A DNA stretch of 50,695 nucleotides. Source: Arcobacteraceae bacterium. GTDB taxonomy: Bacteria > Campylobacterota > Campylobacteria > Campylobacterales > Arcobacteraceae. A model generated the notes under the pieces. That model made no database searches. It had not been told where the DNA came from and worked only from the letters and a program-made list of their open reading frames with translations. The stretch spans positions 1 through 50,695 of the forward strand of contig JAOZJU010000006.1 of NCBI GenBank assembly GCA_029935705.1. The letters run 5' to 3'. Every line of letters starts with the position of its first letter. The stretch's first letter is position 1. Below are positions 43,874 through 50,695 of this stretch, piece by piece. The position numbers and the translations under genes were made by a program.

Positions 43874-45022
43874 TTATTTTAAGTTGATCATATAATCAAC
43901 CACTTTTTTAAACTCATCGTCACTTAATGTTGTTCCACCTTTTGGTGGCATCACATTAAGCCCTTTGATACCTCTTTTGTATACCCCTTTGATACCGCCA
44001 TTTTTCATTTTGGCTTGCCAGTCGCTCTTTTTGCCAGCTACTGGAGCTTGCATACTATCGTTTGCATGACACATAGCACAGCTTTCATCATAGACTTTTT
44101 TGACATTTAGCTTATCTTTTGCTAAAGCTGGCTTATCTTTTTTGTTTGAAAGTGGTGGGTGAAAATCTTTTATGCCACCATTTCTTACTCGCACTATTTT
44201 AGCTGACTTTTTTTGACAGTTTTTCATACATCTTTTAGCATATGCTACTTTTATAGCCCCAAAGTTTTTTGGGTTTTTGTAGTATTTTCGCACTCGTTCA
44301 AGCGAACCTTTGCCATCTATTTTGGGTTCAAATCCATCAACATTTGGCATCTTTATCTTTAGAAACTTTTCTCTTGTAAGTTCATACTCATCATCTACAA
44401 GTTTTCCATCTATCTTTATCTCGTTGATATTAAGTATATATGCTACAAGTGCATACACTTCATCATCTTTTAGAGTTTTGCTTCTTGTATGTGGCATACC
44501 ATCTCTTATATACCACCAAAGTGTGCTAGCTTGTGGCCAATAAGAACCAAACACTCTCACTGGTCCATCGGCATCTGGACGGTTTCGTTGGTTTTTGAGA
44601 GTTTTTTGCATATTATATCCACTTCCTTTTGATAAAGCAGGATAACCTCCGCCACCGCTACCAAAATCTCCATGACAGCTTACACATTGTGCTTCATAAA
44701 GCTCTTCACCATCTTCGACAGTTCCGCTACCTTCAGGCAAACCAGTGCCATCTGCCATGATATCAGTATCCCAAGCTTTAAGCTCATTTGAAGTTGGTTT
44801 TCTACCAAACTTGTATCCACCTTTTAAAGTTTTTTCATTTATTTTATAAGGTCCTGTTTTGCCATTTTTCACTGGATGATAGACACCACCATCTATTGTA
44901 GGGTGGTTACTCATAGTTCCAACAGCCGAAGGTATATATTCACCCTTTTTGGCATAAACACTAGTTGTCAAAAAGAGTAGAAACAAACCTACAAACAAAA
45001 ATTTATGATCTAAGTTGAACAT
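43874..45022 (-). CDS. soxD: Sulfur dehydrogenase cytochrome c subunit SoxD
   Basis: 382-aa periplasmic dihaem cytochrome. The signal peptide is about residues 1-24 (ending SVYA). Haem-binding sites are CVSCH near residue 112 and CAMCH near residue 318. An extra cysteine pair lies in KRCMKNCQ. It passes electrons from SoxC during oxidation of the SoxY-bound sulfane sulfur. The start ATG 45020-45022 lies inside soxC, with a strong GGGAGG ribosome site, so the two are translationally coupled. Confidence 0.93.
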   Translation of the reverse strand: MFNLDHKFLFVGLFLLFLTTSVYAKKGEYIPSAVGTMSNHPTIDGGVYHPVKNGKTGPYKINEKTLKGGYKFGRKPTSNELKAWDTDIMADGTGLPEGSGTVEDGEELYEAQCVSCHGDFGSGGGGYPALSKGSGYNMQKTLKNQRNRPDADGPVRVFGSYWPQASTLWWYIRDGMPHTRSKTLKDDEVYALVAYILNINEIKIDGKLVDDEYELTREKFLKIKMPNVDGFEPKIDGKGSLERVRKYYKNPKNFGAIKVAYAKRCMKNCQKKSAKIVRVRNGGIKDFHPPLSNKKDKPALAKDKLNVKKVYDESCAMCHANDSMQAPVAGKKSDWQAKMKNGGIKGVYKRGIKGLNVMPPKGGTTLSDDEFKKVVDYMINLK

Positions 45023-46343
45023 GATTTACCTCCCCAGTTTTAGTAACTTCCCAAGTCTCTAAGCCATTTCTATGATAGACACTCTCTACACCCATAACTT
45101 CTGTTTCTTGATCGACTGTAGGTTGAATATATCCAGCATCATCCATAGCACGAGAGGTTAGAAGTAGCCTTTGTCCTTTTCTGTATTTGTGCATAAAACT
45201 CCATCTTGTCCAACATTTTGGTAGTACTAGACCTTTGAGTTTTGCTTTTTTGAAGCTTCTACCACCATCAAATGATATATCAACACCTATTATAGTCCCC
45301 ATACCAGACCAAGCTAAACCCTCTATCTCTATCAGGTCGCCATCTTTTAAATCTGTCCATGGTATCTCTGGACTAGGGCTTGTGACAGTTGAGTTTACCT
45401 CATTGGCATAAAAATGTTGAATAGCTTTGCCTGTTGGTTTAAGAGCTGTATATTTGCTTGTTTCCTCTTTGGCAAACCACGGCTCGCTCGCAAACTCAAG
45501 TCTTTTTAACCATTTGACACATAAGTTTCCTTCCCAACCAGGTAGCAAAAGTCGCACAGGATAACCTTGCTCAGGTCTTAATGCTTCGCCATTTTGACCC
45601 CATACTATCATCGCATCATCAAGAACTTTGTCTATAGGGACAGTTCGCCCCATCTCTGAGTTGTCACTTCCCTCGCTTAACATCCATTTTGCTTCTGGTT
45701 TAAGCCCTAAGTCTTTCAAGATAGTTTTGATATATACACCAGTCCATTGGGCACAACTCATAAAACCTTTTGCAAACTGCAAAGAGTTGTATTGAGGTGC
45801 TCTCCACTCTTGACCGCCATTGGCTGGACACTCAATAAAGTGTGTTCTTGTGACACTTGGATATCTTTTAAGCTCCTTTAAAGTCAAAACTATTGGCTTT
45901 TTGACAAGTCCGTGTATCATAAGTCTAAACTTATTTGGATCAACATGAGCAGTGCCACCATGACTTCTACTAAAAAATAGTCCATTTGGAGTGATAATCC
46001 CCTCTATATCTTGTATAGGAGATACAGCTATTGCCGCCCTATAGTTACCCGATGCTAGAAGTTTGGTATATCGTCTTGTGACATTGTGTTCATAAGCCGA
46101 GGGGATACCATACAAATTTTTAGTAATAGGATCGCCCCACTGTTGTCCCCAAGGGGCATGATGAGTTATCGCTTTGTCATCGCCAAACACCTTGACAGGA
46201 TCAAGCACTGACATAGCAGCTATAGCACTTACAGATACTACAGCTGACTTTTTAAAAAATTCTCTTCTACTCTTTTGAGTTGGTTCAAATTTTGTCATAT
46301 TTTGTTTAGAATTATCATCTAAACTTATATTTGTTTTTTTCAT
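45003..46343 (-). CDS. soxC: Sulfane dehydrogenase molybdopterin subunit SoxC
   Basis: 446-aa molybdoenzyme of the sulfite-oxidase family. The Tat signal is SRREFFKKSA (about residues 24-33). The molybdenum-ligating cysteine is in THFIECPANGGQEW. The dimerisation domain (IEGLAWSGMGTIIGVDISFDGG) follows. With SoxD it oxidises SoxY-bound sulfane sulfur, allowing complete oxidation of thiosulfate to sulfate. It is the first gene of the module and is preceded by a strong -10 box. MoaC and MoeA encoded in this window help supply its cofactor. Confidence 0.95.
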   Translation of the reverse strand: MKKTNISLDDNSKQNMTKFEPTQKSRREFFKKSAVVSVSAIAAMSVLDPVKVFGDDKAITHHAPWGQQWGDPITKNLYGIPSAYEHNVTRRYTKLLASGNYRAAIAVSPIQDIEGIITPNGLFFSRSHGGTAHVDPNKFRLMIHGLVKKPIVLTLKELKRYPSVTRTHFIECPANGGQEWRAPQYNSLQFAKGFMSCAQWTGVYIKTILKDLGLKPEAKWMLSEGSDNSEMGRTVPIDKVLDDAMIVWGQNGEALRPEQGYPVRLLLPGWEGNLCVKWLKRLEFASEPWFAKEETSKYTALKPTGKAIQHFYANEVNSTVTSPSPEIPWTDLKDGDLIEIEGLAWSGMGTIIGVDISFDGGRSFKKAKLKGLVLPKCWTRWSFMHKYRKGQRLLLTSRAMDDAGYIQPTVDQETEVMGVESVYHRNGLETWEVTKTGEVNHVQLRS

Positions 46344-46383
46344 TTTTCTCCTTTGTAAAAAATATTAGCTTAAAGCATATCGC

Positions 46384-46433
46384 ATTATACCACAAATATT
46401 TGAAACTAAAACCCAAATATGAAAAAAGTTTCA
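46384..46433 (-). promoter_or_regulatory. soxC promoter with overlapping inverted repeat
   Basis: The -10 box is TATAAT on minus (46384-46389) in the 12-mer TTGTGGTATAAT. A perfect inverted repeat, TGAAACT (46401-46407) and AGTTTCA (46427-46433), flanks and overlaps the -35 position. Its 7-bp arms are spaced 19 nt apart, which suits a dimeric regulator. The rest of the 246-bp divergent gap up to 46589 is AT-rich with no gene. Confidence 0.5.
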
Positions 46434-46557
46434 TAGTATATCTACAGCTTATTTTACATATAACACAAATCTATTTTTAAGTTTCTATTTTATGTAAAGA
46501 TAAAAAGTATTGATATATTGTTATACAAAACGATAGTTAAGTTTTATAATTTTTAGC

Positions 46558-46563
46558 TATAAT
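46558..46563 (+). promoter_or_regulatory. Predicted -10 box for the MOSC gene
   Basis: GCTATAATAAG contains a perfect TATAAT, 26 nt before the TTG start. GGAG lies 5 nt before the start. Divergent from the soxC promoter. Confidence 0.55.
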
Positions 46564-46589
46564 AAGCAAGTTAAAAAATTGGAGAACTA

Positions 46590-47039
46590 TTGAAATCAAA
46601 AAACTCTATCGATATAGTCGCACTTTATATATCTACACCTACTGGTCTGAAGAAAAAAGAGAGCATAGTAGTCGACAAATTGGGCATTGAAGATGATAAA
46701 TTTTATGGCAAATCGCAAAACAGAGCGGTGCTTATCACATCTACATATGCTTATAGTTTGATAAGAAAAAACAATATACCTATCTCATTTGGAGAGTTGG
46801 GCGAAAATATATTAGTAGATTTTGATATCCACAAATTAAAAAAGGATGACACACTACATATAGGCGATGTGTTGCTACAAATCACACAACCATGCACCAT
46901 ATGTGATCATCTATGCAAAATAGATAAAAAAGTCCCAAAACTACTAAAAGAGGATAGAGGCATATTTGCCAAAGTTATAAAAGCTGGCACTATAGCAAAG
47001 AGTATGAAAGGAAAGCTGACATCACATTTTGCAAATTAA
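46590..47039 (+). CDS. MOSC-domain protein
   Basis: 149-aa protein of the MOSC superfamily (beta-strand-rich domain shared with Moco sulfurases and YiiM). Family marks are GIEDDKFYGK, FGELGENILVD, and the conserved cysteine in TQPCTICDHLCK. It is thought to handle sulfur or molybdenum cofactor chemistry, but the substrate is unknown. Start TTG 46590 has TTGGAGAAC before it. It is divergent from soxC, which makes a cofactor or sulfur link attractive though unproven. Confidence 0.85.
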   Translation: MKSKNSIDIVALYISTPTGLKKKESIVVDKLGIEDDKFYGKSQNRAVLITSTYAYSLIRKNNIPISFGELGENILVDFDIHKLKKDDTLHIGDVLLQITQPCTICDHLCKIDKKVPKLLKEDRGIFAKVIKAGTIAKSMKGKLTSHFAN

Positions 47040-47137
47040 GCCGTCATGTGAGTTTGTGGTTTTCTTTAGTAGCAAAACTTTGTGTATAAAATACTCTATT
47101 GTTTAAAATGGCACAATCAAACTTAAGTTAGTTATGG

Positions 47138-47143
47138 TATAAT
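47138..47143 (+). promoter_or_regulatory. Extended -10 promoter for the helicase gene
   Basis: ATGGTATAATAAT contains TATAAT with TGG upstream, 17 nt before the TTG start of the helicase. AAAGGAAA serves as ribosome site. Confidence 0.6.
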
Positions 47144-47160
47144 AATATCAAAGGAAAATT

Positions 47161-49200
47161 TTGGCAAAAGATATACTAAAAGATTTGAATCCCACACAAC
47201 AAGATGCAGTCAAACATATAGATGGTCCTATGCTCATATTAGCAGGGGCTGGTTCTGGCAAAACAAAGACTATCACTACAAGATTGGCATACCTTATATC
47301 GCTTGGAATTGACCCGTCATCTATCCTTACACTTACTTTTACAAACAAAGCAGCAAAAGAGATGAAACATAGAGCTTACTCTCTCATAGATGATATCACA
47401 ATCCCGCCATTGCTTTGCACTTTTCATAAGTTTGGTTTGATATTTTTAAAGTTTCATATCCAAAAATTGGGGCGAAAAAACAATTTTATGATAGTAGACA
47501 CAGATGACAAAAAAAGGATACTTAGAAGTTTGGAAAAAGAGCTTGAGATACCTATGGTAGCATCTATGATATCAAAATTTAAAAACAGTTTTACATCAGT
47601 AGAAGATGCTATGATTTTAAACGATACAAACTCAAAAGAGGTAGCAAATGTTTATGAAGCTTATGAAAACTATCTTCACAAAAACAATCTTGTGGATTTT
47701 GACGATCTTCTGTTTTTGCCATACAAACTTCTGATGCAAGATGATAAACTATGTGAAGAAACAAGCAAAAAATACAACTATATCATGGTAGATGAATATC
47801 AAGATACAAATGAACTTCAGTTTAAACTACTTCAAAAACTATGCCACAGTCACCAAAATATAAGTGTAGTAGGAGATGACGACCAAAGCATATACGAGTG
47901 GAGAGGTGCTACGATTAAAAATATCCTAAATTTTGACAAAGAGTTTAAAGATGTCAAAATAGTAAAACTAGAACACAACTATCGTTCAACACACGAGATA
48001 CTCAAATATGCAAATACTCTCATAGAGCACAATCAAGACAGACTTGGCAAGAAACTAATAGGCACCAAAGAGCAAGGAGAAAAACCAAAAGTTTATGAAT
48101 CTTTCAATGAAACTCTTGAAACCCAAAAAATTATAAGAGATATAAATGCCCTGCTTGACAACGGTGAAGAACTAAACGATATGGCTATATTGTATAGAGT
48201 AAATGCTATAAGTAGGCAGCTAGAAGATGGTTTGACTAAAGCTTCTATCAACTACAAACTAATAGGTGGTAAAAGATTTTATGAAAGAGCAGAGATCAAA
48301 GACCTTATCGCATACTTTAGGACTATTGCAGAACCAAATGACAACTTTTCGTTTAAACGAATCATAAACCAACCCAAAAGAGGCATAGGAAAAACGACTG
48401 TTGATAAGATAGAAGGTTTATCAAAAACCAAAAATATATCTATGTTTGAAACTATAAGTCAAGTCTCAAGCGATGAGATGACTACACTTATAGGCAAAAA
48501 AAACTACAGAACTCTCAAGCTTTTTGAAGCTTCTATATACGAGATTCAGGATATTTTGAAAAACTCAAAGATGCTTTTTATTGACCATTTTGATGATATG
48601 TTTGAGTTTAAACAATCATTTAAAAAACTTTTCGATGGTGAAGATAGGATAGCAAATATAGATGAATTTTATGGACTTTTGAGGGATTATTTGATCAAAG
48701 ATGAAAAAAACGACATAGCAAGTTTTTTAAATATCATATCTCTTTCAAGCGACAAAGAGGATTTAGACGGTGGTGCTATATCGCTTATGAGTATCCACTC
48801 AAGTAAAGGTTTGGAGTATAAACATATATTTGTAGTAGGACTTGAAGAGGGGTTTTTCCCTCTGCTAAATGCTGACATACAAGAAGAAAGACGATTGGGA
48901 TATGTAGCATTTACAAGAGCAAAAAGTTCATTGACTGTCAGTTTTGTGCAAAATAGATTTTATAAAGGCAAGAGGTCAAACCTAACAAAAAGCAGGTTTT
49001 TAGTAGAAAGTGGTCTGCTAAAGGGTGGATTTAAGATGAAAAAGATAAGCAGTTTTGCCAAAGGTGATGCAGTAAAACACAATCTTTTTGGTCTTGGCAC
49101 TATAGAGATGGTCAAACCAGCGGGCAGTTTGTATAAACTGAAGATAAATTTTGGTGGCAACAAAAGAGAGATTATGTCAAGTTTTGTCACAAAGCTATAG
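47161..49200 (+). CDS. UvrD/Rep-family superfamily I DNA helicase
   Basis: 679-aa 3'-5' helicase acting in replication restart or repair. Motif I is AGAGSGKTKTI (about residues 29-39), motif Ia LTFTNKAAKEM, motif II VDEYQDTN, motif III VVGDDDQSIYEWRGA, motif IV HNYRS, motif V SIHSSKGLEYKHIFVVGLEEGFFP and motif VI RRLGYVAFTRAK. The C-terminal region (HNLFGLGTIEMV) matches the UvrD/PcrA tail. Start is TTG 47161. UvrD, PcrA and Rep cannot be separated by eye. The stop overlaps the ribosome site of the next gene. Confidence 0.93.
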   Translation: MAKDILKDLNPTQQDAVKHIDGPMLILAGAGSGKTKTITTRLAYLISLGIDPSSILTLTFTNKAAKEMKHRAYSLIDDITIPPLLCTFHKFGLIFLKFHIQKLGRKNNFMIVDTDDKKRILRSLEKELEIPMVASMISKFKNSFTSVEDAMILNDTNSKEVANVYEAYENYLHKNNLVDFDDLLFLPYKLLMQDDKLCEETSKKYNYIMVDEYQDTNELQFKLLQKLCHSHQNISVVGDDDQSIYEWRGATIKNILNFDKEFKDVKIVKLEHNYRSTHEILKYANTLIEHNQDRLGKKLIGTKEQGEKPKVYESFNETLETQKIIRDINALLDNGEELNDMAILYRVNAISRQLEDGLTKASINYKLIGGKRFYERAEIKDLIAYFRTIAEPNDNFSFKRIINQPKRGIGKTTVDKIEGLSKTKNISMFETISQVSSDEMTTLIGKKNYRTLKLFEASIYEIQDILKNSKMLFIDHFDDMFEFKQSFKKLFDGEDRIANIDEFYGLLRDYLIKDEKNDIASFLNIISLSSDKEDLDGGAISLMSIHSSKGLEYKHIFVVGLEEGFFPLLNADIQEERRLGYVAFTRAKSSLTVSFVQNRFYKGKRSNLTKSRFLVESGLLKGGFKMKKISSFAKGDAVKHNLFGLGTIEMVKPAGSLYKLKINFGGNKREIMSSFVTKL

Positions 49201-49208
49201 GAGAGCTT

Positions 49209-50474
49209 ATAAAAAAGGTTGAACTTCTTTCTCCTGCTGGAAACTTAGAAAAACTTAAAATCGCACTCGCTTATGGTGCCGATGCCGTATATGGAGGAGT
49301 GAGCCACTTTTCACTTCGCATAAGAAGTGGCAAAGAGTTTACATATGAGAGTTTTAAAGAGGGTATAGACTATACTCACAAAAAAGGCAAAAAAATCTAT
49401 GTAACGATAAACGGCTTTCCATTTAACTCGCAAATCGATCTACTAAAAAAACATATACAAAAAATTGCTTCATACAAACCAGATGCCCTAATAGTAGCTA
49501 CACCTGGAGTGGTAGTTTTGTGTAAAGAGCTAGCTCCTACTATACCTATACACCTATCAACTCAAGCAAATGTTATGAACTATCTTGATGCAAAGGTTTA
49601 TTATGATATGGGTGTAAGCAGAATCATTGTTGCACGAGAGATAAGCTTAAAAGATATCAAAGAGATAAAACTAAAACTACCAAAATTAAGCATAGAGGTA
49701 TTTGTGCATGGTTCCATGTGTTTTGCTTATAGTGGCAGATGTCTTATAAGCTCTTTGCAGTTAGGAAGAGTGCCAAACAGAGGTTCTTGTGCAAATGACT
49801 GTAGATTTAACTATACTTTATATGCCAAAAATGAAGACCACGGAACTATGTTTCGCCTTGAAGAGCAACCAGATATCGGCACATATATATTCAATGCCAA
49901 AGATATGAACTTGTGTAGTCATATAGATGAGATAATAAAAAGCGATTCAATAGATAGCTTGAAGATAGAAGGGCGAACAAAATCTTCGTATTATGTAGCA
50001 GTAACAACAAGCTCTTACAAGATGGCTATAGATGATTTTTATGCAAACCGTTTTGATGCTAAGAGATATCAAACAGAACTACATACCACAAAAAATCGAG
50101 GTTTTACCGATGCATATTTGATACACAAACCATTTGAAAAATATACAGACCAAAATTTTGACTATGCTTTAAGTTCTGGTGGTATGGAGGTTTGTGGGTT
50201 TGTAGTAGAGGATGAGAAACATTTTATGTGCAAATACAAGATATATCCTGGCGACCTATTGGAGATATTTGCCCCAAAAAGTTTTGATATAAAGCAGATA
50301 AACAACGACATAGGCGAGATATATAATCAAGATGACAAATATTTTATAAAGTTTAAAACTATTTTGACACAAGATAACAAAGAGCTTCAAAGTGTCCATA
50401 GTGGCAATCTAAATCCTATACAACTACCTGGCAAACTACCATATATGACTATGTTTAGAAGAAACATCACTTAG
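49209..50474 (+). CDS. U32-family peptidase, apparent ATA start
   Basis: Member of the U32 (YegQ/RlhA-type) family. The N-terminal hallmark VELLSPAGNLEKLKIAL and GADAVYGG is encoded in frame from 49218 on, so the first standard start (GTG 49299) would delete conserved sequence. Going back in frame, the only reasonable initiator is ATA at 49209-49211, giving (M)KKVELLSP as in homologues, with AGGAGAG at 49199-49205. The cysteines of the family's Fe-S site appear in HGSMCFAYSGRCLIS and RGSCANDCR. Length 421 aa. Related proteins hydroxylate RNA or are called collagenase-like; the function here is unknown. Confidence 0.88.
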   Translation: MKKVELLSPAGNLEKLKIALAYGADAVYGGVSHFSLRIRSGKEFTYESFKEGIDYTHKKGKKIYVTINGFPFNSQIDLLKKHIQKIASYKPDALIVATPGVVVLCKELAPTIPIHLSTQANVMNYLDAKVYYDMGVSRIIVAREISLKDIKEIKLKLPKLSIEVFVHGSMCFAYSGRCLISSLQLGRVPNRGSCANDCRFNYTLYAKNEDHGTMFRLEEQPDIGTYIFNAKDMNLCSHIDEIIKSDSIDSLKIEGRTKSSYYVAVTTSSYKMAIDDFYANRFDAKRYQTELHTTKNRGFTDAYLIHKPFEKYTDQNFDYALSSGGMEVCGFVVEDEKHFMCKYKIYPGDLLEIFAPKSFDIKQINNDIGEIYNQDDKYFIKFKTILTQDNKELQSVHSGNLNPIQLPGKLPYMTMFRRNIT

Positions 50475-50534
50475 GTGAAAATTTTACTTGCTTGTGTTAA
50501 AGATAAAGCCATATATATTTTTATTACACCTCTC

Positions 50535-50577
50535 GCTGCTTTTTTAGAAAAACCAGCACAAAAATCGGTTCGGCAGA
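50535..50577. repeat. 43-nt direct repeat, copy 1
   Basis: Begins GCTGCTTTTTTAGAAAAACC and ends GGTTCGGCAGA; identical to copy 2 at 50653-50695. The first part can fold: GCTGCTTTTT against AAAAACCAGC, one mismatch, loop TAG. The repeat lies 61 nt after the U32 gene. In one frame it encodes AAFLEKPAQKSVRQ. Confidence 0.85.
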
Positions 50578-50603
50578 TGCTATTGTAGGGATAAGGTTTT
50601 GCT

Positions 50604-50630
50604 CTTGTATCAAGCTTCGCTTGACACAAG
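50604..50630. terminator. Hairpin between the two 43-nt repeats
   Basis: CTTGTATCAAGC (50604-50615) and GCTTGACACAAG (50619-50630) form a 12-bp stem with one mismatch and a TTC loop. It is followed by ATATTTTA on plus. It resembles a terminator for the U32 transcript, but the T run is interrupted. It may instead be part of the repeat element. Confidence 0.5.
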
Positions 50631-50652
50631 ATATTTTAAAGCACATACCTTT

Positions 50653-50695
50653 GCTGCTTTTTTAGAAAAACCAGCACAAAAATCGGTTCGGCAGA
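50653..50695. repeat. 43-nt direct repeat, copy 2, at the window end
   Basis: Exact copy of 50535-50577, starting 118 nt further on and running to the last base of the window. The spacer between copies is 75 nt and unlike the repeat. The repeat may continue beyond the window. Confidence 0.85.

Follow-up and report, generated by a model that had tools for sequence, protein, structure and literature searches.

What are the two identical 43-nt repeats with which the window, a stretch of 50,695 nt corresponding to contig C55 of a 78-contig, 1.28-Mb Arcobacteraceae assembly, comes to its end? The repeat (GCTGCTTTTTTAGAAAAACCAGCACAAAAATCGGTTCGGCAGA) lies at 50535-50577 and again at 50653-50695, 118 nt apart from start to start and with a 75-nt spacer between, and in all of these figures our re-reading agrees with an earlier sequence-only reading of the same DNA. 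No exact direct repeat in the window is longer, and equally long sequences simulated by a first-order Markov model reach 15-18 nt. A hairpin in the spacer at 50603-50631, TCTTGT-a-TCAAGC(TTC)GCTTGA-c-ACAAGA, has 12 pairs and one A-C mismatch and the spacer folds better than its shuffles (z −2.56), which bears out the strong 12-bp hairpin reported before. Each repeat had also been said to fold on itself; a hairpin, here called P1, can indeed be read inside the 43-mer, yet taken by itself the 43-mer has no folding advantage over shuffled sequence (z 0.10). The second copy coincides with the contig end, and the figure of 43 nt is a length set by the assembly, because the homologous contig C78 runs on with TGCTATTG.

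Comparison of the ends of all contigs (156 ends) places 13 of them in one cross-matching repeat cluster, the next largest clusters holding three or two ends, and so the suggestion that the window stops where a dispersed repeat broke the assembly holds well. Many of the smaller clusters are exact 55-nt overlaps, indicating an assembly graph with k=55. Strong matches to the 161-nt query are located solely at contig ends, with no strong copy found inside any contig of the assembly. A 23-nt core of the repeat has 9 matches in the genome and its reversed control none, so the outcome that was to argue for a local event, only two copies genome-wide, is not what the genome contains. Had a 118-nt stretch simply been duplicated in tandem on the spot, two adjacent and identical copies would result, but the homologous copies at another 12 contig ends rule this out, and after the genome search the explanation retains practically no probability. 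A CRISPR array was rejected also, the spacer not being unique and recurring on other contigs (C78, 94%).

The repeat becomes intelligible through intact copies in G002, which is the same-genus Guaymas MAG B24_G6, as identical match coordinates show. There a half-element of about 175 nt consists of P1, a short A/T-rich hairpin, then the linker AAAAATCG, and then P2, an imperfect hairpin of about 135 nt with a conserved apex AAACTCG..CTCAAACAGTT and an internal loop TTAACG. The 43-mer is the 5' part of this half-element (P1, linker AAAAATCG and 5' arm of P2), and so is a fragment of the unit rather than the unit itself. In the first window copy P1 occupies 50535-50557 on the forward strand (GCTGcTTTTT-TAG-AAAAAcCAGC, from direct reading and folding); its arms differ in G002 yet still pair. 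It is followed on the same strand, at 50558-50602, by the linker ACAAAAATCGG and the 5' arm of P2 (..GCAGATGCTATTGTAGGGATA..), with 82% identity to the intact G002 element. The spacer hairpin at 50603-50631 (forward strand, loop TTC), here palindrome A, occupies the place where the apex of P2 is expected; its core TCAAGCTTCGCTTGA has 5 occurrences in the window's genome and none in three congeners. A junction leading from palindrome A to P1, TATTTTAAAGCACATACCTTT (50632-50652, forward strand), is recurrent, similar sequences preceding P1 on C78, C56, C69 and C1. The second copy then begins with a P1 identical to that of the first (50653-50675, forward strand) and with the linker and the start of the 5' arm of P2 (50676-50695, forward strand), cut by the contig end where C78 and C69 continue the same sequence.

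The 3' arm of P2 that the window copies lack was located in the same genome on contigs C41 and C64. Pairing of the window's 5' arm with the C41 3' arm is worth −26.5 kcal/mol and with the G002 arm just −12.4 kcal/mol, from which it follows that the P2 arms changed together within each lineage. Family membership of the window copies rests on the link to G002 and on these 3' arms at other contig ends. Taken together, the window repeats probably represent a dispersed, intergenic palindromic element, non-autonomous and of MITE- or REPIN-like kind, of which they are two truncated 5' halves; the element is decayed and nested in this genome. Palindrome A within P2, together with partly tandem copies in the order B-A-B (A being palindrome A), would be impassable for a short-read assembly at k=55, and the element thereby accounts for where the assembly breaks (13 places). 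The B-A-B order is present on both C55 and C78, and the window end may border a longer array. Within the window the visible copies all lie on one strand.

In this marine bacterium the copies are intergenic and, where a neighbouring gene was readable, stand beside ordinary ones such as those for peptidase U32, asparaginase, hemB, dxs and a glycolate oxidase-like protein, among others (names assigned by reading the proteins, except U32, PF01136). No evidence of recent movement was seen in the window's genome.

Beyond this genome the family is widespread. A model built from six copies (R1) finds matches in 40 of 104 Arcobacteraceae genomes, spread over 9 of 20 genera, and matches of a second model (R2) extend into other families of Campylobacterota, with further places in Ilyobacter polytropus (nine), Fusobacterium vincentii (three) and Aureibacter tunicatorum (two); matches in other Campylobacterota, in Fusobacteriota and in Bacteroidota are weaker than those in Arcobacteraceae. 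R2 misses the window copies because these are without a 3' arm. The exact pattern had 0 matches in 84,980 genomes scanned, a set from which near relatives may be absent, and so the exact sequence looks lineage-specific. Ten element-bearing loci had no match to the Rfam 15 covariance models up to E=1, a phage collection contained no match to the element, and in the literature no paper was found with the apex sequence or with Arcobacter together with such repeats. If the reading as a family is right, several phyla share a palindromic element that is large, structured and of conserved fold, that has no Rfam entry and that, within the scope of these searches, is apparently undescribed so far. As separate observations, G030 (L356-L361) carries seven near-identical copies, the one at L356 lying after 23S and 5S rRNA genes and L360 showing a tandem duplication, and on plasmid pAT2 of Aureibacter tunicatorum (L425, L439) both identical copies adjoin tandem tyrosine recombinase genes in a mirrored duplication, with a 63-aa 'hypothetical protein' annotated across the element.

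In the relatives the half-elements are often paired. P1 points outward in 15 of 16 close opposite-strand pairs (counted by hand from the R1 and R2 match lists), giving composites of about 430-550 nt with long inverted ends (e.g. G059, G122); the terminal inverted repeats of the G059 and G122 composites are not visible in the truncated window copies. Presence and absence at one site is seen between cysH and cysD, a gap that in one genus is short in most genomes (e.g. 16-82 nt where measured). The element is there in G012, G048, G055 and G122 and as eroded remains in G038 and G060, and the site is empty in G106, a genome with 97% identity to G012 over its cysH fragment. Comparison with G012 suggests that G048 lost the P2 apex between short CTAAAAA repeats. 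Nesting recurs in G002, where a palindrome of about 85 nt breaks P2 at two different points in copies L125, L132 and L316 and is absent from copies L113 and L117. Another family of palindromes, with GCACGAGTGAGACATC or a near variant at its end, is dispersed in the congeners G001 and G003 (L297, L301, L304), and in G002 it has inserted within the main element (L125, L132, L316). The family thus combines multi-copy dispersal, covariation of palindromic arms, inverted pairing, nesting and empty/filled site polymorphism.

Whether the fold is maintained in RNA or in DNA can be addressed from the covariation. Across 71 distinct rows of the P2 alignment 91.2% of cells pair and 38 of 40 pairs have changed on both sides, the covariation score being 0.620, while slid structures and shuffles reach no more than 0.187 and 0.156, respectively; the alignment (A3) contains a number of antisense rows and is fitted to the model, so that its pair counts are affected and the level is inflated, and the controls share A3 and are far lower. 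G-T wobbles make up 17 of 2267 cells (0.75%), fewer than A-C mismatches (45). In tRNAs of the same loci G-U pairs amount to 6.9%, a control that drops mismatches by construction, so that the wobble share alone is comparable. Selection on RNA is expected to hold G-U well above A-C on one strand. This is seen on neither strand of the element, implying a structure at the DNA level or else correction of one arm by the other. Covariation this strong and nearly free of G-U wobble speaks for DNA hairpins over RNA, and wobble-free covariation may serve as a simple test of DNA-level versus RNA-level structure in bacterial repeats. A structured RNA (an mRNA 3' stabiliser, terminator or riboregulator) that became multi-copy by chance would fit the strong and conserved secondary structure and the fact that most copies in the window's genome come after the 3' end of a gene. 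It is made rather unlikely by G-U pairs being scarcer than A-C mismatches, by the lack of an Rfam match at E≤1, by a cysH-cysD copy that is gained and lost freely, and by the absence of any terminator-like site called in 46000-50695, which also disposes of an intrinsic terminator there.

Comparison with known repeat classes places the element near several of them. REPINs and BIMEs are REP doublets moved by RAYT Y1 transposases, and they too are intergenic palindromes with frequent inverted pairs, tandem clusters and remnant-like singlets (PMC3116915); in contrast, the unit here is about 175 nt and not the 20-40 nt of a REP, it has two hairpins of which one is a long covarying stem, and four congeneric genomes are without a Y1 transposase. 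Dispersed extragenic palindromes are thus present, as are, in the relatives, inverted doublets, while a 20-40 nt unit and a RAYT are not, and so the element works like a MITE or REPIN yet does not qualify as a REPIN, its unit being too long and RAYT absent. As to MITEs, these are non-autonomous elements with terminal inverted repeats. Like them the element is short and non-coding, has long inverted ends in G059 and G122 and is present or absent at a site; unlike them it displays no clear target duplication, conserves its internal half-structure, and had no parent transposon emerge from the PF01797 search and the pairs read. Of the REP/MITE-like family first proposed, then, the dispersed, palindromic and intergenic character stands, REPIN membership falls by unit length and RAYT, and MITE status is putative. 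A catalogue of stem-loop repeat families from 40 bacterial genomes likewise comprises multi-copy intergenic sequences sharing a fold (PMC2267715); its main text names none of the Campylobacterota genera searched for and no Fusobacterium, and the fold of the present element was not identified in it.

A DNA-structure element in another sense has also to be weighed, in which P1 and the linker form a BoxC/PIT-type intrastrand triplex motif promoting rearrangement. BoxC/PIT/TM_ECO motifs are intergenic and linked with genomic instability, and by the ITxF class II rule from the same source (PMC4666352) P1 plus linker has Y-R-R geometry in 38 of 58 relatives, a result that 0.09% of shuffles also give. 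The element differs in being A/T-rich, with a consensus not of the CCCTCNCCC type. Both window copies fail that rule, and the conserved P2 that follows is left without explanation, which makes this account very unlikely.

For the dispersed palindromic element, spread would proceed by a DNA-level process using a single-stranded folded form, on which a transposase or recombinase supplied in trans might act, along the lines suggested for REPINs and MITEs; copies may erode through hairpin-promoted deletion between short repeats. A linked transposase and target duplications had been named as things to look for. The Y1 transposase domain PF01797 is absent from the four congeneric genomes G000-G003 (controls positive), which discards a RAYT-driven REPIN, and no transposase-like ORF was seen inside the inverted pairs that were read. 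Target duplication is not clear between filled and empty cysH-cysD sites, the flanks of which are heavily diverged. Loci that naturally carry or lack the element could, on this reading, help in tracking down the enzyme that moves it.

Genes between paired copies raise the matter of cargo. Pairs of G045 with P1 outward (L362, on contig C16, and L363, on C126) have Septu ptuAB-like genes and a ThsB-like TIR gene between them, and two copies of like orientation flank a DUF1016 nuclease gene. Inverted half-elements could on this evidence be transposon ends or cassette boundaries delimiting mobile units able to carry cargo, defence genes included. That is decidedly unlikely, given that the examples come from one MAG (86% complete, 6% contamination), that most pairs are empty (about 450 nt) and that in the window's genome the copies have housekeeping genes as neighbours; no defence cargo was found there in ORFs adjoining 12 of the 13 contig ends, the remaining end (C48) having no ORF of 80 aa within the 574 nt read. 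The G045 cargo is a lead only, from a single incomplete MAG. DUF1016 nuclease and mqsRA genes stand beside the G045 inverted pairs (L362, L363). Folded attC sites serve integron cassettes, and by analogy with these the structured DNA family of Campylobacterota, Fusobacteriota and Bacteroidota might have its folded single strand as a recombinase substrate and its inverted pairs as minimal mobile units, sometimes with defence genes. We regard this broader proposal as unlikely.

Upstream of the window repeat lies the peptidase U32 gene (49299-50474, forward strand; PF01136, E 1.2e-77), with its stop codon 60 nt short of the element. Among named relatives, its product is closest to proteins of Arcobacteraceae and Guaymas MAGs (82-84% identity), and the repeat is absent downstream of the U32 orthologues in three relatives (L032-L034). 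Gene order near the repeat was rearranged, as the UvrD helicase and U32 genes (47161-50474) are co-directional in the window and convergent in the close relatives L033 and L034. Further upstream, at 43874-46343, genes for a molybdopterin oxidoreductase and a di-haem cytochrome c form a SoxCD-like arrangement (PF00174, PF03404, PF13442).
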